Shown piece after piece: positions 39,707 to 51,157 of a stretch of 64,000 nt of DNA (the stretch's first letter is position 1; the number at the start of each line of letters is the position of its first letter). Under the pieces are notes generated by a model. That model made no database searches. It was not told the origin of the DNA and worked only from the letters and a program-made list of their open reading frames with translations. Where the stretch lies: the NCBI RefSeq assembly GCF_001514215.1, contig NZ_KQ948852.1, forward strand, positions 191,254-255,253, given 5' to 3'. A program made the translations under genes and the position numbers. The stretch is from Streptomyces bungoensis. GTDB taxonomy: Bacteria > Actinomycetota > Actinomycetes > Streptomycetales > Streptomycetaceae.

Positions 39707-40201
39707 CTTGGCGGAGGGGGGCCTTGGGCACGACGGCCCTGCCGGGCAGTGGGCCTGGCGGGAGACCACCTCGCCGGAAGACGGCCCCCGGCCGACTACA
39801 CCCCCCAGCAAAACGCGGCCCCCGACGGAAGACAGCCCTACCCGGCAGTGGGCCAGGCCGGGAGACCACCTCGCCGGAAGCCGACCCCGGCGGAAGACAG
39901 CCCGCAGCAAAACGCGGCCCCCGACGGAAGACAGCCCTACCCGGCAGTGGGCCAGGCCGGGAGACCACCTCGCCGGAAGCCGACCCCGGCGGAAGACAGC
40001 CCGCAGCAAAACGCGGCCCCCGACGGAGGACAGCCTTACCAGGCATTGGGTCTGGCCGGGAGACGGCCCGGCGAAAGGCGGCCCCCGGCGGAAGACAGCC
40101 CCCGCCGAAACGCGGCCCCCGCCGGAAAACGGCCCTGCCCGGCAGTGAGCCTGGCCGGGAGACCACCCCACTGGAAGGCGGGTCCGGCAGGAGACGGCCC
40201 C
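39707..40201. repeat. Tandem array of five 99-bp repeats
   Basis: Units begin at 39707, 39806, 39905, 40004 and 40103 with an exact 99-bp period. Units two and three are identical over all 99 bases; the outer ones are diverged. Inside each unit GGAAGAC and GGAGAC-type blocks recur. Similar GGAAGACGGCC-rich sequence extends on both sides from about 39,660 to 40,320. Every unit length is a multiple of three and several frames on both strands stay open, so protein coding cannot be judged from openness alone. The whole 39,473-40,386 interval has no gene I can support. Confidence 0.9.
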
Positions 40202-40386: not shown

Positions 40387-40812
40387 TCACCGCTGGCCGG
40401 CCGCCCGCACGGTGCCCAGGTCCTCACCCGTGAGTTCCGCGATGCGGTGCGCGGGCACGCCGGCGGCCAGGGCGCGCGTGAGCAGCTCGTCCCGGCCGTC
40501 GGTGCAGTCGCGGTAGGCTCGGAGCTCCTCCTCGAGCGGCACGGTGGCCTCCGGGGCCGTCCGGCTGCGCAGCCGGCTCAGCTCCTCGTCGCTCAGCGGC
40601 ACCGGCACCCGCTCCGCGTCCGCGGGGATCGCCTCCCGCTCCTCCGGCGGCACGATGCGCAGGTGGGGCGAGGTCGCGGTCACCTTCTGCGCGGCGAGCC
40701 AGGCGACGACCGCCGCGGTGTCCATGCACGACAGCTCACCGAGAGCGGCGGGCGGCACACCCAGGTGCGCGGTCGTCTCGTCGACGAGAAACAGATAGGC
40801 GTCGTCAGTCAT
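40387..40812 (-). CDS. Hypothetical protein, DUF6003-like
   Basis: A 141-residue cytosolic protein starting MTDDAYLFLVDET. A hydrophobic N-terminal strand is followed by an MDTAAVVAWLAAQKVTATSP segment, an acidic linker with VPVPLSDEELSRLRSR, and a C-terminal helix-turn-helix-like end (GVPAHRIAELTGEDLGTVR). The order resembles the streptomycete DUF6003 group, which I suggest only tentatively. GGAGG stands 8 bases before the ATG. Its 3' end borders the 99-bp repeat region. Function unknown. Confidence 0.7.
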   Translation of the reverse strand: MTDDAYLFLVDETTAHLGVPPAALGELSCMDTAAVVAWLAAQKVTATSPHLRIVPPEEREAIPADAERVPVPLSDEELSRLRSRTAPEATVPLEEELRAYRDCTDGRDELLTRALAAGVPAHRIAELTGEDLGTVRAAGQR

Positions 40813-40901
40813 TACCAGTCCTCCGCGGAGCTTGTCGGCCGTTCGCCGTGCCCATACCCCGTCACGGACCGCACACCCGGGCCATGAGTGTCGCCTCGGA
40901 C

Positions 40902-41330
40902 TCAGCGCGCCCCCGGTACCTCTTCCGTCGTCCCGTGCAGCGGCGACGAGGGATCGCTGCCGTAGGGGCGGGTGAAGGCCTCCAGGCCGTGCCCGGCGGG
41001 ATCCCGGAAGTACACGCCCCGGCCGCCGTCGTTGCGGTTGATCCGGCGCGGATGCCTGCCGTGCGGGTCGGCCTGCAGGGGGACTTCGGCCGCCACCAGC
41101 CGCGCGAGGATCTGGTCGAACTCGTCCTCGGAGACGAGGAACGCGTAGTGCTGCACGGGGATGTCGACGTCGACGGTCGCGAAGTCCAGCGTGACGCCGT
41201 TGGCGGTCCGCACCGGCAGGAACATCCCGGCCGGCTCCCCGACCTCCAGCCCCATGATCCCGGCGAGGAAGTGAGCTGACTCCTCCCGGTCACGGGAGTA
41301 AACGATGGTGTGGTTGAACTCGACTGACAC
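40902..41330 (-). CDS. VOC-family (glyoxalase-like) protein
   Basis: A 142-residue vicinal-oxygen-chelate protein with both half-domains: FNHTIVYSRDREESAHFLAGIMGL at the N-terminus and HYAFLVSEDEFDQIL to GRGVYFRDPAGHGLEAFT at the C-terminus. Candidate metal ligands are His in NHT, His in QHY and Glu in LEAF, as in glyoxalase and dioxygenase relatives. The GTG start at 41330 has GGAGG upstream. It is divergent from the GlxA-type regulator of the next operon across 333 bp. Confidence 0.85.
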   Translation of the reverse strand: MSVEFNHTIVYSRDREESAHFLAGIMGLEVGEPAGMFLPVRTANGVTLDFATVDVDIPVQHYAFLVSEDEFDQILARLVAAEVPLQADPHGRHPRRINRNDGGRGVYFRDPAGHGLEAFTRPYGSDPSSPLHGTTEEVPGAR

Positions 41331-41663
41331 GGGTCAATGCCTCCATGGGCATCTCCGCGGCCCCTCCATGCCTCACCCGGCCGGTGACCGGCACGCGAAG
41401 CCGCACCGCAGAGCGTAGACATGACGCCCCGACAGCGTCGAGCCGTTATCGCGCCGACCGGCGGTGTCCTGCCTCAGCCCTTTTCGAAGGGGCGCACTCC
41501 GGCATTGTGTTGCGTCCACCCCTGTGACCTGCCTCACCCGCCACCACCTCTCACCGCCCGCGAACCCGCTGGCCAGCGCCCCTCTTCGGCGTCCCGCGCC
41601 CGGGCGCTGGCCGGATACGTCAGTAATCTGTCATTGCAGCCAGTGCGGTGATCGATACAGGCT
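41331..41663. promoter_or_regulatory. Divergent spacer upstream of the ThDP/KAS III operon
   Basis: A 333-bp region between the VOC gene and the GlxA-type regulator. It must hold the promoter of the five-gene operon. I see TAATCT (41624-41629) and GATACA (41654-41659) as possible -10 elements but no matching -35. No strong palindrome or gene was found. Confidence 0.4.
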
Positions 41664-42686
41664 GTGACCGTGCTGGAGCGACGTGTTGTTGTGGTGGTGT
41701 ACCGGGGCGCGATGGCCCTGGACATCACCGGACCGATTGAAGTGTTCGATACCGCCAACCGGCTTCTCGCCCCGTCGGGCACCCCCTACCGGATCGACCT
41801 GGTGTCCGCCGACGCGCCCCTGGTGCGCACGAGTTCGGGGGTGACGGTGGAGGCCTCCCCGCTGGAGGCGGCGGAGGGTGCCATCGACACGCTTCTCGTG
41901 CCGGGGGGATGGAGTCTGCCGGACGCGCTGCGCGACCGGGCGCTGGTGTCCTGGATCGACCGGGCGGCGGCCCGTTCACGAAGGGTCGCCTCGGTCTGCG
42001 GCGGATCCTTTCTGCTGGCCGAGGCGGGGCTTCTGGACGGCAGACGCGCCACCACGCACTGGGCGTACAGCGAGGCGATGGCCGGCCGCTACCCGAAGGT
42101 GACGGTGGACGCCGAGCCGATCTTCGTCTGGGACGGCCCGTTCGTGACCTCGGCGGGCGTGTCGACCGGGATCGACATGGCGCTGGCCCTGGTGGAGGCC
42201 GACCACGGCGCGGCGCTCGCGCTGGAGACGGCACGGTTCCTGGTGCTCTTCCTGAAGCGGCACGGCGGGCAGTCGCAGTTCAGCGCCGTCCTCGACGCCC
42301 AGCTGGCCGACCATCCCCCGATCCGGACCGCACAGGAGTGGGTCCTGGAGAACCTGCACCATCCGTTACCCGTGGCCGAGCTCGCCCGGCAGGCCAACAT
42401 GAGCCTGCGCAACTTCGCCCGGGTCTTCCGGCGCGAGGTGGGCACGACGCCCGGCCAGTACGTCGAGCGGACGCGCATCGCCCGCGCGCGTGAGCTGCTG
42501 GAGACCACCGACCTGACCATCAGCCAGGTGGCGGGCCGTTGCGGCTTCGCGGCCACCGAGACCTTCTTCCGCTCCTTCGGGCGGACCCTGGGGCTGACCC
42601 CGAAGGAGTACCGGCACCGCTTCCAGGTCGTCGCGCCATCCGGCCTCATCGACCGGCACCACGAGACGGACAGGAGCCCGGCATGA
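41664..42686 (+). CDS. GlxA-family regulator (DJ-1/PfpI domain plus AraC HTH), TTA-containing
   Basis: A 340-residue regulator. The N-terminal DJ-1/PfpI-like sensor (about 8-190) has nucleophile-elbow Cys112 in ASVCGGSFLLAEAG. Two C-terminal AraC helix-turn-helices (about 225-320) include LARQANMSLRNFARVFRREV and AGRCGFAATETFFRSFGR. Such proteins usually activate neighbouring operons. Codon 235 is TTA (42366-42368), so translation should depend on the bldA tRNA. The stop overlaps the ThDP gene start (ATGA), placing the regulator in the operon it probably controls. GTG starts at 41664 or 41670 are both possible. Confidence 0.88.
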   Translation: MTVLERRVVVVVYRGAMALDITGPIEVFDTANRLLAPSGTPYRIDLVSADAPLVRTSSGVTVEASPLEAAEGAIDTLLVPGGWSLPDALRDRALVSWIDRAAARSRRVASVCGGSFLLAEAGLLDGRRATTHWAYSEAMAGRYPKVTVDAEPIFVWDGPFVTSAGVSTGIDMALALVEADHGAALALETARFLVLFLKRHGGQSQFSAVLDAQLADHPPIRTAQEWVLENLHHPLPVAELARQANMSLRNFARVFRREVGTTPGQYVERTRIARARELLETTDLTISQVAGRCGFAATETFFRSFGRTLGLTPKEYRHRFQVVAPSGLIDRHHETDRSPA

Positions 42687-44461
42687 CCTCCCCGACCTCC
42701 CCGGCCCCGGACAGGCCCGCCGCAGGAACGGTACGGCTGGTCGACTACCTGGCCGGGGAACTCGCCCGGGCCGGCGTCACCCATCTGTTCGGCGTCGGCG
42801 GCGCGAACATCGAGGACCTCTACGACGCCGTCCACCGCGGCGGCTCGGTCCGGGGCGTCGTCGCCAAGCACGAGTTCTCCGCCGTCACGATGGCCGACGG
42901 GTACGCCCGGACCACCAGGCGCCTGGGCGTGGTCGCCGCCACCTCGGGTGGCGGGGCGATGAACCTCGTGCCGGGCCTGGCGGAGGCGCACGCCTCGCGG
43001 GTGCCCGTGCTGGCCCTGGTGGGCGAGCCGCCGACCGGCCAGGCCGGCCACGGGGCGTTCCAGGACTCCAGCGGCAGGGCGGGCAGCTTCGACGCCTCGG
43101 AGGTCTTCGGACCGGTCTCCCGGTTCTGCGCCCGGGTCCGGGACGCGGACTCGCTCCCGGAGTTGCTGTCCCGCGCGGTGGCCGCGGCACGGACGGACCC
43201 GCGGGGGCCGGCGGTGCTGCTGCTGCCCAAGGACGTGCAGCAGGCGCGGATCCGCCGGCCCGGCCGTGGCCCGGCACCGGGCCTGCCGGCACCGGCCTCG
43301 ACGGCAGCGGCGGCCGCACTCGACACCGCGGCCCTCAGCGCCGTGTCGGACATCCTCCGCGGGGCCGGCCGCGTCCTCATCGTCGCCGGTGAGGGCGTCG
43401 CCGCCGCGGACGCGCGGGCGGAACTGGCCGAACTGGCCGGGAGGCTCGGGGCGTGGGTGGCCGTCACCCCCGACGCCAAGGACGTCTTCGACAACCGCGA
43501 TCCGAGGTTCGCCGGCGTGGCCGGGGTGATGGGGCATGCCAACGTCGAGGACTGCCTGCGCCGGGCCGACGTGTGCCTGCTGGCCGGTACCCGGCTGCCG
43601 CTCCTGGCGCGCGGCGGCCTCGACCGCGCGCTGTCCGCCACCGAGGTCGTGTGCCTCGGGCCCGAACCGCCGTTCGTACCGGGCACCGCGCTGCGGGGGG
43701 ACGTGCGGGAGGCGCTGCGCGCGGTGACCGCCCGGCTGCCGGCACGCCCGCGTGCGTGTCCGCCGCACGCCGGCCCCCGCCCCCGGCCCCTGCCGGATCC
43801 GGACGGCCGGACCGCCGGGCGAACCGTCCGGTACCCCCAGGCGATCGCCGCGGTGGAGGCCGCCCTCCCCCAGCACGCGCACGTCTTCGTGGACGCCGGC
43901 AACGCGGGTGCCAGCGCGGTCCACCTCCTCCCGGCACCGCGCCACGGCCGCTTCGTGGTGGCCGTGGGCATGGGGGGCATGGGGTACACCTTCGGTGCCG
44001 GGATCGGCGCCGCGCTCGCCACCGGACGGCGTACGTACGTCCTGGCCGGCGACGGCTCCTTCTTCATGCACGGGATGGAAGTGCACACCGCCGTGGAGTA
44101 CGCCGCCCCCGTGACCTTCGTCGTCTTCAACAACAACGCCCACGCCATGTGCGCGCTGCGCGAGGAGTTCCTCCAGGGCGGCAGCCGCCGCGACGACGTG
44201 TTCGGCCGGACCGACCTCGCCGCCGGAGTGGCCGCCGCGTTCCCGTCCCTCGACGTCACCAGGGCGGACGACGCGGCGCAGTTGCGCGAGGCGCTGCTGC
44301 GCGGCAACGCCGGCGACGGCCCGGCGTTCGTCGCGCTGGACTGCGACCCGGCCGAGATCCCCCCGTTCCTTCCCTTCCAGTCCTTCACCACCACCGACCG
44401 CACCGCACGCAACGACCACGAGGAGAGTTCGGATGAGCGAGGAGTCGTCCACGTTGGCTGA
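42683..44461 (+). CDS. Thiamine-diphosphate-dependent enzyme (acetolactate-synthase/decarboxylase type)
   Basis: A 592-residue ThDP enzyme with pyrimidine-binding, central and diphosphate-binding domains. The cofactor-activating Glu64 lies in VVAKHEFSAVTMADGYAR. The diphosphate/magnesium motif is GDG at 456-458 with NNN at 483-485. Family members decarboxylate 2-oxo acids or join the resulting acyl anion to an aldehyde or ketone. Its place beside an aminotransferase and a KAS III-like enzyme suggests secondary metabolism rather than branched-chain amino acid synthesis. A 29-bp overlap with the next gene implies tight coupling. Substrate unknown. Confidence 0.85.
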   Translation: MTSPTSPAPDRPAAGTVRLVDYLAGELARAGVTHLFGVGGANIEDLYDAVHRGGSVRGVVAKHEFSAVTMADGYARTTRRLGVVAATSGGGAMNLVPGLAEAHASRVPVLALVGEPPTGQAGHGAFQDSSGRAGSFDASEVFGPVSRFCARVRDADSLPELLSRAVAAARTDPRGPAVLLLPKDVQQARIRRPGRGPAPGLPAPASTAAAAALDTAALSAVSDILRGAGRVLIVAGEGVAAADARAELAELAGRLGAWVAVTPDAKDVFDNRDPRFAGVAGVMGHANVEDCLRRADVCLLAGTRLPLLARGGLDRALSATEVVCLGPEPPFVPGTALRGDVREALRAVTARLPARPRACPPHAGPRPRPLPDPDGRTAGRTVRYPQAIAAVEAALPQHAHVFVDAGNAGASAVHLLPAPRHGRFVVAVGMGGMGYTFGAGIGAALATGRRTYVLAGDGSFFMHGMEVHTAVEYAAPVTFVVFNNNAHAMCALREEFLQGGSRRDDVFGRTDLAAGVAAAFPSLDVTRADDAAQLREALLRGNAGDGPAFVALDCDPAEIPPFLPFQSFTTTDRTARNDHEESSDERGVVHVG

Positions 44462-45086
44462 CATCCCCGGCCTGATGCGGATCGAGAACGCCGGCAGGGA
44501 GGAGCTGACCGCCCACTGCATGGAGCTCACCCACGCCGTCTATCCCCACCACCAGGTCTACGGGCAGTACTGCACCATCCACGAGTACGTCGACTGCCCT
44601 CCCGAGCTGGTCTACGACTACCTCCGCCAGGGCCACCACCTGGAGGAGTGGACGTGCAGCCTGCGGGACTTCGCCCCCACCGGCACACCGGGGCTGTGGG
44701 TCGGCCACGACCGGCTCGAGGACGACACCAGGATCTACTGCAAGGTGGACGCCCACCCCGAGTCCATGACCGTGGACTACCACTGCTCCTGGGACCAGGG
44801 CGAGAAGCTGTGGATGATCTACCTCATGCGCGTCGTGCCCGCCGCCCTGGTGCTCGACAGGCCGGGTTCGGTGATCACCTGGACCAACTGCCGGCACCCC
44901 TACTACGACGCCAACCCCCACCCCGACAAGAGCCCCCGCCCCGACCGGCCCTGGGTGGGTGACTACTGGGACCTGTTCTACGCCGGGCACACGGTGGAGA
45001 TGAACAACCTCAAGGCGATCCTGGAACACCGCCACCGGCGCGGCCTGCCCGTCTGTACGGCTCCGGCGACGGCGGTGACGCGGTGA
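44433..45086 (+). CDS. SRPBCC-fold (polyketide cyclase/START-like) protein
   Basis: A 217-residue protein that fits the SRPBCC helix-grip fold. A YGQYCTIHEYVDCPPELVYDYL strand-helix start lies near residue 43, followed by HHLEEWTCSLRDF, a beta-rich middle and a long C-terminal helix (DLFYAGHTVEMNNLKAILEH, near residue 180). The fold binds hydrophobic ligands, and members serve as aromatases/cyclases in polyketide pathways. It overlaps the ThDP gene by 29 bp, with GAGGAG before its ATG, and overlaps the KAS III-like gene (GTGA). It may bind or cyclise the product of its neighbours. Confidence 0.75.
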   Translation: MSEESSTLADIPGLMRIENAGREELTAHCMELTHAVYPHHQVYGQYCTIHEYVDCPPELVYDYLRQGHHLEEWTCSLRDFAPTGTPGLWVGHDRLEDDTRIYCKVDAHPESMTVDYHCSWDQGEKLWMIYLMRVVPAALVLDRPGSVITWTNCRHPYYDANPHPDKSPRPDRPWVGDYWDLFYAGHTVEMNNLKAILEHRHRRGLPVCTAPATAVTR

Positions 45087-46102
45087 CCGCGGTCAGTCTC
45101 ACCGACGTCGCGGGGTACCTCCCCGGTGACCCGGTCCCGGCCGAGTTCTACACCGAGTACCCGGGAGCGGAGGACAAGCTGCGCGGCCATCCCATGTTCA
45201 GGGTCCCGCCGTTCCGGCACCACGTGGCGCCGGACGAAACCAACGCGGACATGGTCGAGCGCGCCGTGCAGCCGCTGATCGAGCGGCACGGGCGGGCCGC
45301 GATACAGAACGTCGACGTGCTGCTGGTGCACAGCCAGTTACCGGACCTGCCGTTCGTGGGCGCCGGCACCGAAGTGGCACGCCGGCTGGGCCTGCGGCCG
45401 GAGTGGCTCGTCGACGTGGCCAACGCGGGCTGCGCCTCCTTCGTCCACATGCTGAAGCTGGCCCGGCACCTCCTCACCACCACCGACGCGAGGACCGCGC
45501 TGATCTGCAACGCGCAGAGCGCGGCGGGCCAGTGGTTCACCCAGTCCGAGGTGCGCAGGCTCGCCCAGGCCGCGATCCCGGGCGACGGCTGCGGCGTGGG
45601 GTACGTGACGAGGTCGGCCGGCTCCCCGGTCCTCGACGTGGAGACCCGGCACATCGGCGACTACGCCGGGGACATGCGGGTGGCGGTCGACGACGGCCGC
45701 AAGTACTGGGAGCCCGGGGAGTCCCAACTGCGGATCGGGTTCACCGACTCCAGCGTCGCCAAGGTCCTGGCACGCGGCAACCGGCTCGTGCCGGAGGTCG
45801 TCACGGACCTGTGCGGACGGCTCGGTGTGGCGACCGGCGACATCGACGTCCTCATCACCAACCAGCCGAACCGCACCTTCCTGCGGAACTGGCGGGAGGC
45901 GCTCCAACTGCCGGCCGAACGGCACCTGAACACCTTCGACCAGTACGGGAACCTGTTCGGAGCGGCGATCCCGGTCACCCTGGACCGCGCGATCCGCTCG
46001 GGAGAGGTGAAGGACGGCGACCTGGTGGTGCTGGGGGGATTCGCCCACGCGGGCGACTTCGCCGGTGCCGCCGCCGTCCGCTGGCACGGCGGGCGGGGAT
46101 GA
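45083..46102 (+). CDS. KAS III-like (FabH-type) acyl transferase/condensing enzyme, atypical triad, TTA-containing
   Basis: A 339-residue thiolase-fold protein. Cys117 in ANAGCASF is the acyl-accepting residue. Asn290 in QYGNLFGAAIP matches Asn274 of E. coli FabH. The catalytic His is replaced: the HQAN motif reads NQPN with Asn260, at the same 30-residue distance from Asn290. KAS III relatives with altered triads often transfer acyl groups instead of decarboxylative condensation, so this may form esters, amides or ketones with a ThDP-derived product. Codon 86 is TTA (45338-45340). GTG start overlaps the SRPBCC stop. Confidence 0.85.
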   Translation: MTAVSLTDVAGYLPGDPVPAEFYTEYPGAEDKLRGHPMFRVPPFRHHVAPDETNADMVERAVQPLIERHGRAAIQNVDVLLVHSQLPDLPFVGAGTEVARRLGLRPEWLVDVANAGCASFVHMLKLARHLLTTTDARTALICNAQSAAGQWFTQSEVRRLAQAAIPGDGCGVGYVTRSAGSPVLDVETRHIGDYAGDMRVAVDDGRKYWEPGESQLRIGFTDSSVAKVLARGNRLVPEVVTDLCGRLGVATGDIDVLITNQPNRTFLRNWREALQLPAERHLNTFDQYGNLFGAAIPVTLDRAIRSGEVKDGDLVVLGGFAHAGDFAGAAAVRWHGGRG

Positions 46103-46105
46103 CCG

Positions 46106-47209
46106 ATGAGCGTGCCCGTCCTGCACCGGCTGGTCCTGAACGAGAGCCCGTACCCGCCCCTGCCCGCCGTGCGCGAGGCGATGCGACGGGCCGTCGCCCA
46201 GGCCCACCGGTACCCGCAGTTCTACCCGGACGACCTCACCGAGCGGATCGCCGCATGGTGCGGGCTGCCCTCCGACCACGTCGTGGTGGGCAGCGGATCG
46301 GTGGGCGTGGCCCTGCAGTCGCTCCAGGCGGTCGTCCGGGGCGGTGACGCGATGGTCTACGCCTGGCGCAGCTTCGACGCCTACCCGTTGCTTGCCGAGA
46401 TGACCGGTGCCCGGCCCGTTCCCGTCCCCCTCTCGCCGGACGGGCGGCAGGACCTGGGCGCACTGCTGGCCGCGCTCGGCCGTCGCACCCGCGTCGTGGT
46501 GCTGTGCAATCCGCACAACCCCACCGGAAGCATGATCACCGCCGAGTCCCTGTCGGAGTTCCTGGGGCGGGTCCCCCGGCACGTCACCGTGCTCCTCGAC
46601 GAGGCGTACGTGGAGTTCGCGCGCGGCCCCGGGCTGCCGGACACGCCCGCGCTGCTGGGCGCGCACCCCAACCTGCTGGTCCTGCGCACGTTCTCCAAGG
46701 CGTACGGCCTGGCCGCCCTGCGGGTCGGCTACGGGCTCGGCTCCCCGGACCTGGTGGAGCGGATCCGCCGGCAGCAGTTGCCCTTCGGGATCAACGCCGT
46801 GGCCACGGCGGCGGTGAAGGCCTCGCTGCGGGCCGGCGGCGAGCTCCGGCTGCGCGTGGACAGCGTCGTCGCCGAACGCGAACGGCTGCGCCACGAGCTC
46901 GCCGGCCTCGGCTGGCACGTCCCCGCGGGCCACGCCAACTCCGTCTGGCTCGCCGCGCCCGATCGGGTGGACGAGGGCGCCCGGGCCCTGGCCCTCGCCG
47001 GCGTCCAGGCCCGCCACTACCCCGGCGAGGGGCTGCGGCTCACCGTCGGCGGCCGCAAGGCCAACGACACGGTGCTCACCGCGCTGGCGGGACTGGGCGC
47101 ACCACGGCGCACGACGGACCGCGCCTACGCGGAACGGTCCCGAGCACCGGGGTGCCCGCAGCGGACGGCGACGGCCGCGATGTCGTCGTCGAGCCGCCCG
47201 CCGCTGTAG
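46106..47209 (+). CDS. HisC-like PLP-dependent aminotransferase
   Basis: A 367-residue fold-type I aminotransferase of the histidinol-phosphate family. LVLNESPYPPLP opens the chain, GSGSVGVALQ binds the cofactor phosphate, NPHNPTGS lies near residue 134, DEAYVEFA near residue 158 and the Schiff-base Lys198 in FSKAYGLAALR. Many HisC-like enzymes in secondary-metabolite clusters aminate ketones or aldehydes. It starts 3 bp after the KAS III-like stop and ends the five-gene operon. Its 3' end overlaps the convergent phosphatase gene by 85 bp, so the last 28 codons may be a late extension. Confidence 0.88.
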   Translation: MSVPVLHRLVLNESPYPPLPAVREAMRRAVAQAHRYPQFYPDDLTERIAAWCGLPSDHVVVGSGSVGVALQSLQAVVRGGDAMVYAWRSFDAYPLLAEMTGARPVPVPLSPDGRQDLGALLAALGRRTRVVVLCNPHNPTGSMITAESLSEFLGRVPRHVTVLLDEAYVEFARGPGLPDTPALLGAHPNLLVLRTFSKAYGLAALRVGYGLGSPDLVERIRRQQLPFGINAVATAAVKASLRAGGELRLRVDSVVAERERLRHELAGLGWHVPAGHANSVWLAAPDRVDEGARALALAGVQARHYPGEGLRLTVGGRKANDTVLTALAGLGAPRRTTDRAYAERSRAPGCPQRTATAAMSSSSRPPL

Positions 47210-48252
47210 TGGAGCAGGTCGTGGTGCAGCCGGTCCAGCAGTTCCCGCGGAGCCGCCGGGCCGAGCTGCCGCGTCCACTCCGGCAGCGGGAAGAACGTGC
47301 CGGCGCGGTTCCGGGTCTCCGTCACTCCGTCGGTGTACAGGAGCATCTGGTCGCCCGAGGCGAAGGAGACGGTGTCGACGCTGTAGTCGTCTCCGATGAG
47401 CGTCGCGAGGTTGAGGGGCGGGGAGGGAGCGGTGGGCTCCAGGACGCGGATCTCACCGCTGCGCATCAGCAGGGGCGGGGGGTGCCCGCAGTTGAGGATC
47501 TTCACCTGCCCTCCGGCCGGCGGGATCTCGGCGATCAGAGCCGTGGCGAAGTGCTCGGACTGGTCCGGGTCGAGGGTCGCGACGCTGTAGCGGCCCATGC
47601 TGGTCTCCAGACGGTGGATGATGCCCCTCAGGTGGGGCTGGTCGTACGCGTTCTCCCGGAAGCAGTTGATCACCGCGGCGGCCGCACCCACCGCCGACAG
47701 CCCCTTGCCGCGCACGTCACCGATGAGCAGCCGGACCCCGTACGGCGTGTCGGCCACCTCGTAGAAGTCGCCTCCGATGCGGGCCTGCTCCTGGGCCGCC
47801 AGGTACAGCGACTCGATCTCGACGTCCTGGACCCGGCGGGGCAGCGGGCGCAGCAGCACCCGCTGCGCCGCGTCGGCGACGAGCCGGATCTGGAAGAGGG
47901 CCTCCTCCCGCTGGAGCCGGAGATGGCTCGTGTAGGCGGCCGCCAGAGTGACCGCCGCGATCGCGGCCACCGTGTAGGGCGTTCCCAGATCGGAGTAGAC
48001 GAAGCTGAGCCCGATCATGACCAGCAGGCAGAACGCCCCCAGCAGGATCGTCGGGACCACGGGCCACATGGCGGCGGCGAGGGCGGGTGCGGCGGGAAGG
48101 AGGCGGCTGAAGGCGATGTCCCTGGGGGTGGCGAAGGCCAGGCCGGTGATGAGGACGGTGAGGATCACGGGGGACAGCAGGACGCCCTCGCGTCGGCCAC
48201 CGTAGGGAGCGCGGTGGCGCCGTGGCCGTCCTTTACTGATCACAAAAAGCAT
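47125..48252 (-). CDS. Membrane-bound SpoIIE-type phosphatase
   Basis: A 375-residue protein. Residues about 22-115 contain three to four transmembrane segments and residues about 140-365 a PP2C/SpoIIE phosphatase (ARIGGDFYEVADTPYGVRLLIGDVRG, DQMLLYTDGVTE, LDDDIAAVAVR). This compact membrane-plus-phosphatase form is common in Streptomyces and lacks PAS or GAF sensors. The ATG at 48252 is in an unusually AT-rich stretch with TATATG about 12 bases upstream, so the transcript may have a very short leader. It is divergent from another SpoIIE phosphatase and converges on the aminotransferase gene. Confidence 0.9.
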   Translation of the reverse strand: MLFVISKGRPRRHRAPYGGRREGVLLSPVILTVLITGLAFATPRDIAFSRLLPAAPALAAAMWPVVPTILLGAFCLLVMIGLSFVYSDLGTPYTVAAIAAVTLAAAYTSHLRLQREEALFQIRLVADAAQRVLLRPLPRRVQDVEIESLYLAAQEQARIGGDFYEVADTPYGVRLLIGDVRGKGLSAVGAAAAVINCFRENAYDQPHLRGIIHRLETSMGRYSVATLDPDQSEHFATALIAEIPPAGGQVKILNCGHPPPLLMRSGEIRVLEPTAPSPPLNLATLIGDDYSVDTVSFASGDQMLLYTDGVTETRNRAGTFFPLPEWTRQLGPAAPRELLDRLHHDLLHYSGGRLDDDIAAVAVRCGHPGARDRSA

Positions 48253-48340
48253 CTTATCCGGGCATATAGGGCTTCGTTCCCTGAGTGCGTACGGGCCCGA
48301 CCGGCGCCCCGCTTCTCCACGGGAGTGCTATCAAGGGTGT

Positions 48341-51157
48341 ATGGAGGTGTTCTCCGGGCGCTCTCGCGGCCCGGAACGTCATCCGCCTGCCGGACGCTCG
48401 CGCGAGCCTCATGCTTCCCTGCTGGACGTGCGCAGCGCGGCCGGACAGGTGTTCCTGCTCCAGGTCGTCATCGTGGTCCTGCTCGTCGTGGCCGCGGTGG
48501 CGGGCATGGTGCTCCAGACCGCGCGTGACGCGCTCCAGCGGGGACGCAGGGAGTCGGTCGTCGCGGCCCAGTCGTTCGCGAGTGCCCCGGGTACGGCCGC
48601 GGCGCTGCGGAGCCCCGATCCGACGGCGGTGCTGCAGCCGCGCGCCGAGGCGGCGCGCAGACGCACGGGCGTGGACTTCGTCGTCGCCATGAACACGCAG
48701 GGCATTCGGTACACGTACCCCTATTCGCGGGAGATCGGGAAGAAGTTCGTCGGCACCATCGCACCGGCGCTGAAGGGCCGTACCGTCGTCGAGCAGGCCG
48801 GTGGGCCGCCGCTGCCCGCGGGCAGGGGGACCGACGTGCAGGCGGTGGTCCCCGTGACCGACGCGGGGGGCAAGGTGGTCGGCCTGGTCTCCGCCGGCAT
48901 CACGGTGAAGAACGTGGCGGGACTGTGGCTGCCGCAGCTGCCGATCATCCTGGGCAGTGGCGCGGCCGCGCTGGCACTGGCCGTGACAGGGACGACGCTG
49001 GTGTCCCGACGGCTGCGGCGGCAGACGCACGGCCTGGCCCCCGAGGAGCTGGCGCAGCTGTACGAGCACCACGACGCGGTACTGCACGCGGTCCGGGAAG
49101 GCGTGCTGATCACCGCGGCCGACGGACGGCTGCTGCTGGCGAACGACGAGGCGGCACGGCTGCTCGGACTGTCCGGGGACGTGCGGGGGCGCCCGGTGCG
49201 GGAGCTGGGACTGCCGGAGCCGGTGATGAGCCTGCTGGCGTCGCCGGAGGCGGTCACCGACGAGGTTCTCCCCGCGGGGGACCGGTTGCTCTCGGTGAAC
49301 AAGCGGCCGACGTACCCGAAGGGCGGCCGCGGGGGCAGCGTGGTGACCCTCCGGGACACCACCGAGCTGGTGGCGGTCTCGGGACGGGCCGAGGTCGCGC
49401 GGGAGCGGCTGAAGCTGCTCTACGAGGCCGGGGGGGCGATCGGAACGACGCTGGACGTGTCCCGTACGGCCCAGGAACTGGCCGACGTGGCGGCACTGCA
49501 GTTCGCCGACCTCGTGACGGTGGACCTGCTCGACGCGGTGCTGCGGGGGTGGGAGCCGACGGCGGAGGGCTGGCGGCACCTGCGCCGGGCGGCGATCGGC
49601 GGCGACCGGCGGGCGGTGCCGGTGTATCCGCTGGGCGAGGTGATCACGTTCTCGTCCCGCACCCCGCAGATGCGGACGCTGCAGGAGGGCCGGGGCATGC
49701 TGGAGGCGGACCTGCGGCGGGCGCAGGGCTGGCGGGAACAGGACCCGGAGCGTGCCCGGAAGGCCCTGGAGTGCGGGCTGCGGTCACTGGTGACCGTGCC
49801 GCTGCGGGCGCGGAACGTGGCGCTGGGGGTGGCGAACTTCTACCGGACGTCGGGCTCCCCGGCGTTCGAGCCGGAGGACCTCGCCTTCGCGGAGGAACTG
49901 GCCGTTCGGGCGGCGGTGGCCATCGACAACGCCCGGCGGTTCACCCGGGAGCACGCGATGGCGGTCACGCTGCAACGGAGTCTGCTGCCGCGGGGGCAGC
50001 CGGAGCAGGACGCGCTGGAGGTGGCCTGGCGGTACCTGCCCGCGGAGGCGGGAGTGGGCGGGGACTGGTTCGACGTCATCCCGCTGCCGGGCGCCCGGGT
50101 GGCCCTGGTGATGGGGGACGTCGTCGGGCACGGGCTGCACGCGGCGGCGACGATGGGCCGGCTGCGCACCGCGGTGCACAACTTCTCGACCCTGGACCTG
50201 CCCGTCGACGAGGTGCTCGGGAACCTGGACGACCTCGTCGTCCGCATGGACAACGAGGAGGACGCGGGCGACGCCGCGGACAGCCACGAGGGGGAGGGCG
50301 TGACCGGGGCGACCTGCCTGTACGCGGTCTACGACCCGGTGGCCGGGGTCTGCACGATGGCCCGTGCCGGCCACCCGGAACCGGTGGTGGTGCGCCCGGA
50401 CGGCACGGTCGCCTGCCCCGGCGTGCCGGCCTCGGCGCCCCTCGGCCTGGGCGGCTACCCCTTCGAGACCGCCGAGGTGCCCCTGCCGGAGGGTTCCCAG
50501 CTGGTGCTGTACACCGACGGCCTGGTGGAGGACCGCGCCCACGACATCGACATCGGGATGGAGCGGCTGCGCCGGGCACTGGACGGCTCCGGGGGCCGCG
50601 CTCCGAAGGAGACCTGCCAGGCGGTGATCGACGCGCTGCAGCCGTCGCACTCCTGCGACGACATCGCTCTGCTGGTGGCGCGCACCCGGGTGATCCCGCC
50701 CTCGCGCGTGGCCGAGTGGGAGGTGCCGTCGGACCCGGCGGTGGTGCCCGAGGTGCGGGCCCGATGCAGGGAGACGCTGCGGGAATGGGGGCTGGAGGAG
50801 ACCGGGTTCGCCACGGAACTGATCCTCAGCGAGCTGGTCACGAACGCGATCCGCTACGGCTCCCCGCCGGTCGGCGTGCGCCTGCTGCACGGACGCTGCC
50901 TGATCTGCGAGGTATCGGACGGCAGCGGCACCCTGCCGCGCCTGCGACGGGCCGCGACCACGGACGAGGGCGGACGGGGCCTGTTCCTGGTGGCGCACTA
51001 CGCCCAGCGATGGGGCACGCGCTACACGCCCCGCGGCAAGGTCATCTGGACGGAACAGGTCCTCCCCGACGGGGCTTCGGCCGCCCCGGCCCTGGCACCG
51101 GTCGACTTCCTGCTCGACCAGTTCGACCTGGACCAGTTCGACGATCCCGGGTTGTGA
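48341..51157 (+). CDS. Multidomain sensor SpoIIE phosphatase with HATPase kinase-like domain
   Basis: A 938-residue signalling protein. A transmembrane helix at about 37-58, an extracytoplasmic CitA/DcuS-like sensor (about 60-195), a second transmembrane helix (about 200-222), PAS (about 240-340), GAF (about 355-540), SpoIIE/PP2C phosphatase (about 560-785, VGGDWFDVIPLPGARVALVMG) and a C-terminal HATPase anti-sigma-kinase-like domain (about 800-915, ELVTNAIRYGSPPVG). Phosphatase and kinase-like halves in one chain suggest a self-contained partner-switching node that answers an outside signal. It ends in a repeated LDQFDLDQFD tail. Start ATG at 48341. Confidence 0.92.
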   Translation: MEVFSGRSRGPERHPPAGRSREPHASLLDVRSAAGQVFLLQVVIVVLLVVAAVAGMVLQTARDALQRGRRESVVAAQSFASAPGTAAALRSPDPTAVLQPRAEAARRRTGVDFVVAMNTQGIRYTYPYSREIGKKFVGTIAPALKGRTVVEQAGGPPLPAGRGTDVQAVVPVTDAGGKVVGLVSAGITVKNVAGLWLPQLPIILGSGAAALALAVTGTTLVSRRLRRQTHGLAPEELAQLYEHHDAVLHAVREGVLITAADGRLLLANDEAARLLGLSGDVRGRPVRELGLPEPVMSLLASPEAVTDEVLPAGDRLLSVNKRPTYPKGGRGGSVVTLRDTTELVAVSGRAEVARERLKLLYEAGGAIGTTLDVSRTAQELADVAALQFADLVTVDLLDAVLRGWEPTAEGWRHLRRAAIGGDRRAVPVYPLGEVITFSSRTPQMRTLQEGRGMLEADLRRAQGWREQDPERARKALECGLRSLVTVPLRARNVALGVANFYRTSGSPAFEPEDLAFAEELAVRAAVAIDNARRFTREHAMAVTLQRSLLPRGQPEQDALEVAWRYLPAEAGVGGDWFDVIPLPGARVALVMGDVVGHGLHAAATMGRLRTAVHNFSTLDLPVDEVLGNLDDLVVRMDNEEDAGDAADSHEGEGVTGATCLYAVYDPVAGVCTMARAGHPEPVVVRPDGTVACPGVPASAPLGLGGYPFETAEVPLPEGSQLVLYTDGLVEDRAHDIDIGMERLRRALDGSGGRAPKETCQAVIDALQPSHSCDDIALLVARTRVIPPSRVAEWEVPSDPAVVPEVRARCRETLREWGLEETGFATELILSELVTNAIRYGSPPVGVRLLHGRCLICEVSDGSGTLPRLRRAATTDEGGRGLFLVAHYAQRWGTRYTPRGKVIWTEQVLPDGASAAPALAPVDFLLDQFDLDQFDDPGL

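Follow-up and report, generated by a model that had tools for sequence, protein, structure and literature searches.

The closest described systems are the gene clusters for carquinostatin A (cqsB1-B7, Streptomyces exfoliatus) and neocarazostatin A (nzs), which encode a thiamine diphosphate (ThDP) enzyme, a carbazole synthase, a β-ketoacyl-acyl carrier protein synthase III (KAS III)-like enzyme and an aminotransferase, with the same proposed reactions (PMC7466098). In the core path as outlined in the available part of that paper, CqsB7 converts tryptophan to indole-3-pyruvate, the ThDP enzyme CqsB3 adds pyruvate, the KAS III-like enzyme CqsB1 adds an acyl group and CqsB2 closes the ring; NzsD has been named as an aminotransferase (PMC10100901). 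We analyzed a 64,000-nucleotide stretch of Streptomyces bungoensis DNA (the window; the host genome is 8.4 Mb) and found that a five-gene operon at positions 41664–47209 contains homologs of all four enzymes, one gene for each of the CqsB7, CqsB3, CqsB1 and CqsB2 steps, and, unlike cqs and nzs, a DJ-1/AraC regulator of its own. The first-pass annotation of the window had treated this set as undescribed; it corresponds instead to the published carbazole-core set CqsB3/NzsH, CqsB1/NzsJ, CqsB2/NzsI and CqsB7, as given in the accessible text of PMC7466098. Homology, catalytic residues, a conserved gene order, a conserved promoter and variable flanks were all observed, and we consider it highly probable that the locus is a minimal, self-regulated operon for the synthesis of the carbazole core, a three-ring structure from a recognized class of antioxidants, from tryptophan. 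The pathway is thus most likely of a known kind, encoded by a divergent, stand-alone carbazole-core operon. New features are the four-gene order kept between differing flanks, a KAS with a Cys-Asn-Asn site, the spread of the operon and the SigL link of its relatives in Mycobacteriales.

All five genes are on the forward strand, and their coordinates were confirmed from open reading frames and their families by Pfam and NCBIfam. The regulator (41664–42686) contains DJ-1/PfpI and AraC-type helix-turn-helix domains; its start is uncertain (GTG at 41664, or a GTG no more than 33 bp downstream), and most relatives align from residue 13 on. It is followed by a ThDP-dependent carboligase (42683–44461, the CqsB3/NzsH counterpart; Pfam TPP enzyme N, M and C domains), an SRPBCC/Bet v1-like carbazole synthase (44433–45086, the CqsB2/NzsI homolog), a KAS III-like acyl transfer/condensation enzyme (45083–46102, ACP_syn_III, the CqsB1/NzsJ counterpart) and a HisC-like class I/II aminotransferase (46106–47209, Aminotran_1_2, pyridoxal phosphate-binding Lys198), the CqsB7 counterpart, which would convert tryptophan to indole-3-pyruvate. 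The junctions proposed earlier all held when re-read from the sequence: an ATGA overlap (42683–42686), a 29-bp overlap (44433–44461), a GTGA overlap (45083–45086) and a 3-bp gap (46103–46105). No Rfam family was matched in 40800–48600, a simple scan found no sigma-70 promoter in the operon, and the two terminator-like sites, both within genes, were about as many as expected by chance.

The SRPBCC protein matched no family in Pfam or NCBIfam. Its sole sequence match in the Protein Data Bank (PDB) was the carquinostatin A carbazole synthase CqsB2 (6ipv, E = 2.4e-52; PMC7466098), with identity at 85 of 195 aligned positions. A predicted model built from 22 relatives (mean predicted local distance difference test score, pLDDT, 87) also had CqsB2 as its top Foldseek match (E = 7.9e-20), followed by plant abscisic acid receptors (4.7e-7). 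The global root-mean-square deviation from CqsB2 was 16 Å at a template modeling (TM) score of 0.70, and domain placement therefore differs between the model and CqsB2. The catalytic residues proposed for CqsB2 are Glu105, Tyr144, Tyr172, His206 and Glu209 (PMC7466098), and the window protein has Asp93, Tyr130, Tyr158, His186 and Glu189 at these positions, four of the five being identical and Glu105 being replaced by Asp. The same replacement, with the other four residues kept, was present in 98 of 104 distinct relatives, and 35 residues were invariant across 22 relatives, one of which is a carquinostatin-type protein. The E value and the four identical catalytic residues place the window protein with the CqsB2/NzsI-type carbazole synthases, and the earlier suggestion that it "binds or cyclises" can be narrowed to probable cyclization. 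Type II polyketide aromatase/cyclases such as TcmN and WhiE-ORFIV have a Bet v1-like fold to which CqsB2 is said to be similar; unlike these enzymes, which act on a poly-β-keto chain bound to acyl carrier protein (ACP), CqsB2 uses a free unstable indole intermediate, according to the available part of the same paper (PMC7466098).

The SRPBCC gene was detected in 37 of 392 genomes of the genus of the window, its own genome included. The 38 regions from this genus were grouped by SRPBCC identity to the window: group A (L039–L056, 18 intact loci, and the broken copy L076; 84–91%), group B (L057–L059, three loci; 72–75%), group C (L060–L070, eleven loci; 50–58%) and group D (L071–L075, five loci; 40–43%). 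Groups A and B have the order regulator-ThDP-SRPBCC-KAS, often with the aminotransferase added, group C has ThDP-SRPBCC-KAS without the regulator, and group D has KAS-SRPBCC-ThDP. One group A locus, L050, is truncated by a contig end and begins within the ThDP gene; the broken L076 is a second operon copy in genome G194, which also has the intact clade B copy L057.

We further scanned 84,980 species genomes and analyzed the best 80 of the 520 stretches in which a relative was encoded, with start codons and genes called by script. Forty-nine of these named loci (L077–L125) belong to the clade of the window and come from Streptomyces, Kitasatospora, Streptacidiphilus, Streptantibioticus, Wenjunlia, Saccharothrix sp. 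ST-888, Actinoplanes and Planosporangium. All 49 keep regulator-ThDP-SRPBCC-KAS on one strand, and so the arrangement is not due to chance. The ThDP and SRPBCC genes overlap by exactly 29 bp in 38 of the 49, the SRPBCC and KAS genes by 4 bp in 47 and the regulator and ThDP genes by 4 bp in 35. This bears out the view that the genes form one coupled unit, with regard to these four genes. Independent variation between genomes, which would have spoken against such a unit, was found only for the aminotransferase, which had a match in 22 of the 49 clade loci and was full length (at least 330 residues) in 18; the remaining copies were degenerate or cut by a contig end. The flanks differ (49 upstream neighbors in 45 families and 47 downstream neighbors in 43), and therefore the operon stands alone and has been inserted at many places. 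Common flanking genes were considered as a clue to the product and dropped, since neighbors differ between loci. Further copies of the cassette were found in Mycobacterium, Nocardia, Rhodococcus, Tsukamurella and metagenome-assembled genomes of other phyla, and the SRPBCC gene was found in 16 of 396 genomes of a whole-phylum sample (two of them weak matches).

The linked KAS III-like enzyme keeps Cys117 and Asn290 of the catalytic triad, and the position of the FabH His is occupied by Asn260. Among 118 KAS rows (104 distinct), the site was Cys-Asn-Asn in 99 distinct sequences and Cys-His-Asn in five, all five in group D (carquinostatin/neocarazostatin type); the His was absent in groups A, B and C and in the wider relatives. 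KAS and SRPBCC trees, built from 50 and 51 rows selected from the sets, both placed group D apart on a long branch, a placement that is unsure given the length of the branch and a warning from the program. The KAS tree joined groups A and B with Mycobacteriales (support 100/98). The earlier proposal of acyl transfer by a KAS III relative agrees with what a CqsB1-type step would do, and a keto intermediate made by the ThDP enzyme would likewise fit a CqsB3-type step. The linked ThDP carboligase keeps the catalytic Glu (position 64). Its best PDB matches were BbmA and CsmA, on which the literature search returned nothing. In four non-actinobacterial loci (L127, L135, L136 and L137), a window-type SRPBCC and KAS lie beside a ThDP enzyme that best matches the carquinostatin type (47–56%).

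The aminotransferase passed the NCBIfam cut-off of the HisC-like subfamily PRK03321 (382 versus 374 bits), and its best PDB match was a putative phenylalanine aminotransferase. It is 51–55% identical to the aminotransferases of the carquinostatin/neocarazostatin-type loci L071–L073, a level that marks it as CqsB7-type, and 46% identical to the best paralog in its own genome. The last ~30 residues (47110–47209) extend beyond the conserved domain and are unmatched in relatives; the 3′ end of the gene overlaps the end of a convergent SpoIIE-type phosphatase gene (47125–48252, minus strand).

Comparison with known carbazole systems showed both likeness and divergence. Group D contains the carquinostatin-type loci: CqsB2 shares 98% and 97% identity with the SRPBCC proteins of L072 and L073, respectively, and the gene row of L072 (KAS, SRPBCC, ThDP, squalene/phytoene synthase-like, second KAS, ACP, aminotransferase) fits cqsB1-B7. 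Unlike the window, with its ThDP-SRPBCC-KAS order and Cys-Asn-Asn site, L071–L075 have the order KAS-SRPBCC-ThDP and retain both the KAS His and the SRPBCC Glu105, and L071–L073 have a second KAS III and a small ACP-size gene. A dedicated ACP, a second KAS III and a prenyltransferase are present in L072; none was found by Pfam among the five window genes or the immediate neighbors scanned, and the window operon is without a tailoring gene. A subset of group C (C1: L062, L064–L066, L068 and L070), which we take as the chlCz/carbazomycin B type, resembles the window in the ThDP-SRPBCC-KAS order, Asn in place of the KAS His and Asp at CqsB2 position 105 (SRPBCC and KAS 52–57% identical), and differs in having extra ACP, methyltransferase, FAD and SDR oxidoreductase, transporter and desaturase genes and no window-type regulator. 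Gene sizes in L064 make this assignment likely, not proven: KAS (341 residues), ACP (83), FAD (441), SDR (338 and 308) and ThDP (585 or 591, depending on the start) mostly fit the chlCz table in the accessible part of PMC10100901, and SRPBCC is off it (222 versus 199). A known cluster with the same gene order, sought in response to the first-pass annotation, was therefore found in part: the gene content is matched, and the carbazomycin-like loci share the order, which is reversed in the carquinostatin-like ones. A third comparison involved the lipocarbazoles, 3-oxygenated carbazoles from Tsukamurella pseudospumae Acta 1857 (PMC7466098, in the part available); no gene cluster attributed to them came up in the literature covered. 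In the same genus, T. tyrosinosolvens NCTC13231 has ThDP-SRPBCC-KAS (L179:7361-13316, in a record called plasmid 7), without a window-type regulator. A TrpB-like gene lies ~1.3 kb beyond this cassette, and an indole/styrene monooxygenase gene is also found beyond it.

By analogy, the aminotransferase would convert L-tryptophan to indole-3-pyruvate, so that the PLP enzyme, which had been expected to add nitrogen, most likely removes it from tryptophan at the start. The ThDP enzyme would join indole-3-pyruvate and pyruvate to a β-keto acid, and the KAS III-like enzyme would load an acyl group from an acyl-CoA or acyl-ACP of primary metabolism and couple it to the β-keto acid, releasing CO2. The SRPBCC protein may then take the unstable product directly, close the ring on indole C2 and aromatize it, giving a 1-alkyl-2-methyl-carbazole-3,4-diol that would oxidize to the ortho-quinone. 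As the operon has no tailoring gene, the simplest product would resemble carbazoquinocins. The substrates, including tryptophan, the product and the regulation are all predicted. Tryptophan is the favored substrate because the aminotransferase is nearest to the L071–L073 type, window-type enzymes are paired with carquinostatin-type ThDP enzymes, ring closure on indole C2 suits the chemistry and a Tsukamurella cassette exists.

Several observations weigh against a tryptophan-derived carbazole. Identity to the carquinostatin-type enzymes is only 37–38% for ThDP and 26–30% for KAS, the usual triad His is missing from the KAS, and the operon has neither the ACP nor the second KAS III of cqs and nzs. 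In addition, the link between chlCz and its product comes from genome mining, as far as the available text of PMC10100901 goes, the Tsukamurella species with the cassette differs from the lipocarbazole producer, and the TrpB-like gene, once considered as a general companion and dropped, was present in one locus only among those compared. The same low identities would also fit machinery that used another keto acid (phenylpyruvate, 4-hydroxyphenylpyruvate or other) and made a different fused aromatic quinone, and the broad HisC-like family of the aminotransferase, with a putative phenylalanine aminotransferase as its best PDB match, would suit this as well. We nevertheless regard such a product as unlikely: on chemical reasoning, ring closure requires a nucleophilic ring carbon such as indole C2, window-type SRPBCC and KAS co-occur with carquinostatin-type ThDP enzymes, and the closest matches to the aminotransferase, of the proteins compared, come from carquinostatin-type loci.

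The first-pass annotation had pointed to the logic of the PigD/PigE branch, in which a ThDP enzyme makes an acyloin that is then aminated to an aminoketone condensing to a pyrrole or similar, and ThDP and PLP enzymes do share one operon here. PigE reportedly has a class III aminotransferase domain, and the window enzyme has none, being a class I/II, HisC-like protein (Aminotran_1_2); moreover, the aminotransferase is missing from many otherwise intact operons and so is not a core step, and the SRPBCC protein is a homolog of the carbazole synthase CqsB2. This explanation is therefore extremely improbable. Degenerate copies such as the broken L076 and the degenerate aminotransferases raise the prospect of an operon that is not expressed or has decayed in this strain, or of a product absorbed into another pathway. 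With five open frames, catalytic residues kept and a conserved promoter in the window, we consider this very unlikely, and a carbazole core derived from tryptophan remains the preferred reading.

The regulator precedes the cassette in all 49 named clade loci, and the region upstream of it is conserved. In an alignment of 26 clade A upstream regions (the window and 25 loci), the common block consisted of a GTGAG-N4-CTCAC repeat, TTGGCCGGATaCGTCA and a -10-like GATACA. In the window, an imperfect inverted repeat GTGA..TCAC (41524–41539) is a likely regulator site, and it reads GTGAG-N4-CTCAC in the clade consensus. A putative promoter block on the plus strand (41606–41659) runs from TGGCCGGATA (41608) to GATACA (41654–41659), with TGGCCG[GA]AT at this block in 23 of the 25 named clade A loci. 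TGGCCGGATA differs at one position from the AdpA site consensus TGGCSNGWWY, and AdpA is of the same DJ-1/AraC type as the operon regulator. Autoregulation via an AdpA-like site before the regulator gene is suggested by these motifs: the regulator probably binds the conserved block upstream of its own gene and switches the operon.

A different type of control was indicated in Mycobacteriales, for which 22 loci (L130, L131, L133 and L138–L156) were within the best 80; the species are close kin and counts on them are not independent. ThDP-SRPBCC-KAS-aminotransferase, the order of window genes 2–5, was complete in 21 of the 22. A gene for an extracytoplasmic function sigma factor (family H6) was near the cassette in 18: directly before it with a zf-HC2 anti-sigma gene in nine loci (L144–L147, L149, L150, L152, L155 and L156, the last from Mycolicibacterium vinylchloridicum), at a distance of some genes in L138 and on the opposite side of the cassette in eight Nocardia loci. 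secY precedes the sigma gene in eight loci. The Pfam order in L145, for example, was SecY, adenylate kinase, M24 peptidase, sigma, anti-sigma, cassette and MarR, followed by mmsB-, acyl-CoA dehydrogenase- and aldehyde dehydrogenase-like genes, a neighborhood that corresponds to the sigL-rslA region of M. tuberculosis (Rv0732–Rv0737). In L147 (Mycobacterium shimoidei), the anti-sigma gene is followed by a lone SRPBCC gene that carries a SigL-type site of its own, and a second, cut ThDP-SRPBCC-KAS set lies ~8 kb on.

SigL-type promoters were searched with a loose pattern and then with a stricter one shaped on its matches, so that the strict count is partly post hoc: 25 matches in 453,284 bases on both strands, versus a mean of 2.1 in 20 resamplings. 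Sixteen of these sites were just before the ThDP gene, six before the sigma gene and three elsewhere, one of them before the lone SRPBCC gene of L147. A strict site preceded the cassette in 16 of the 18 loci with a sigma gene (L146 and L155 had a looser site) and in none of the four without. At the -10 part, CGTG-T-CA agrees with the SigL consensus C-G-T-G-N-C/A-A-G (PMC6372665, in the part available), and several Nocardia sites read CGTATC, missing the G; TGAAC as a SigL consensus text was not found in the literature searched. The strict pattern was absent upstream of the window operon and in all 49 loci of its clade, and the looser one had a single match, in L122, among 50 upstream regions. 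RslA is described as a sensor of redox change (PMC2877774, accessible text), and the SRPBCC gene was present in 82 of 251 genomes of one family of the same class, taken for the mycobacterial one. A tentative scenario, to which we give somewhat less than even weight, is that the cassette is a widespread stress-linked module making a lipid-soluble carbazole antioxidant, that it belongs to a redox-controlled SigL/RslA-type regulon in Mycobacteriales, that the DJ-1/AraC regulator took over in Streptomyces, and that the KAS dropped its His since the β-keto acid decarboxylates easily. From titles and the beginnings of abstracts in the open-access carbazole and SigL literature, we recognized no description of a regulator-linked or mycobacterial operon; subscription papers were outside this search.

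Additional gene associations were found at individual loci. In a sub-group of C (L060, L061 and L067), a class III aminotransferase gene follows KAS, and menaquinone (futalosine-type) radical SAM and VitK2 genes (Pfam for L060 only) lie on the other side; this could be an aminated-type carbazole pathway. Three clade B loci (L108, L109 and L111) share a downstream set of a PucR regulator, KAS III, an AurF-like oxygenase, a reductase, a phosphopantetheinyl transferase-ACP fusion and an MMPL transporter (Pfam for L108), a pattern suggestive of a tailored or joined pathway. On plasmids of Rhodococcus opacus and Nocardia (L180 and L181), cassette genes adjoin a hemerythrin-domain gene; the Nocardia plasmid has the order SRPBCC-ThDP, with KAS and the aminotransferase some genes off on the opposite strand. 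The window also contains a GC-rich tandem repeat (39732–40201; 99-bp unit, 4.7 copies, 85% matches) between DUF6003 and NAD-dependent epimerase-like genes.

With this analysis, an operon present in roughly one in ten sampled species of the genus of the window receives a name and a product that can be tested. Standard profile libraries miss this operon: Pfam and NCBIfam have no match for its key cyclase. A branch of KAS III enzymes without the usual His would serve carbon-carbon bond formation. The SigL-type promoters, if real, would connect an indole-derived antioxidant with a sigma factor known chiefly from work on envelope lipids.

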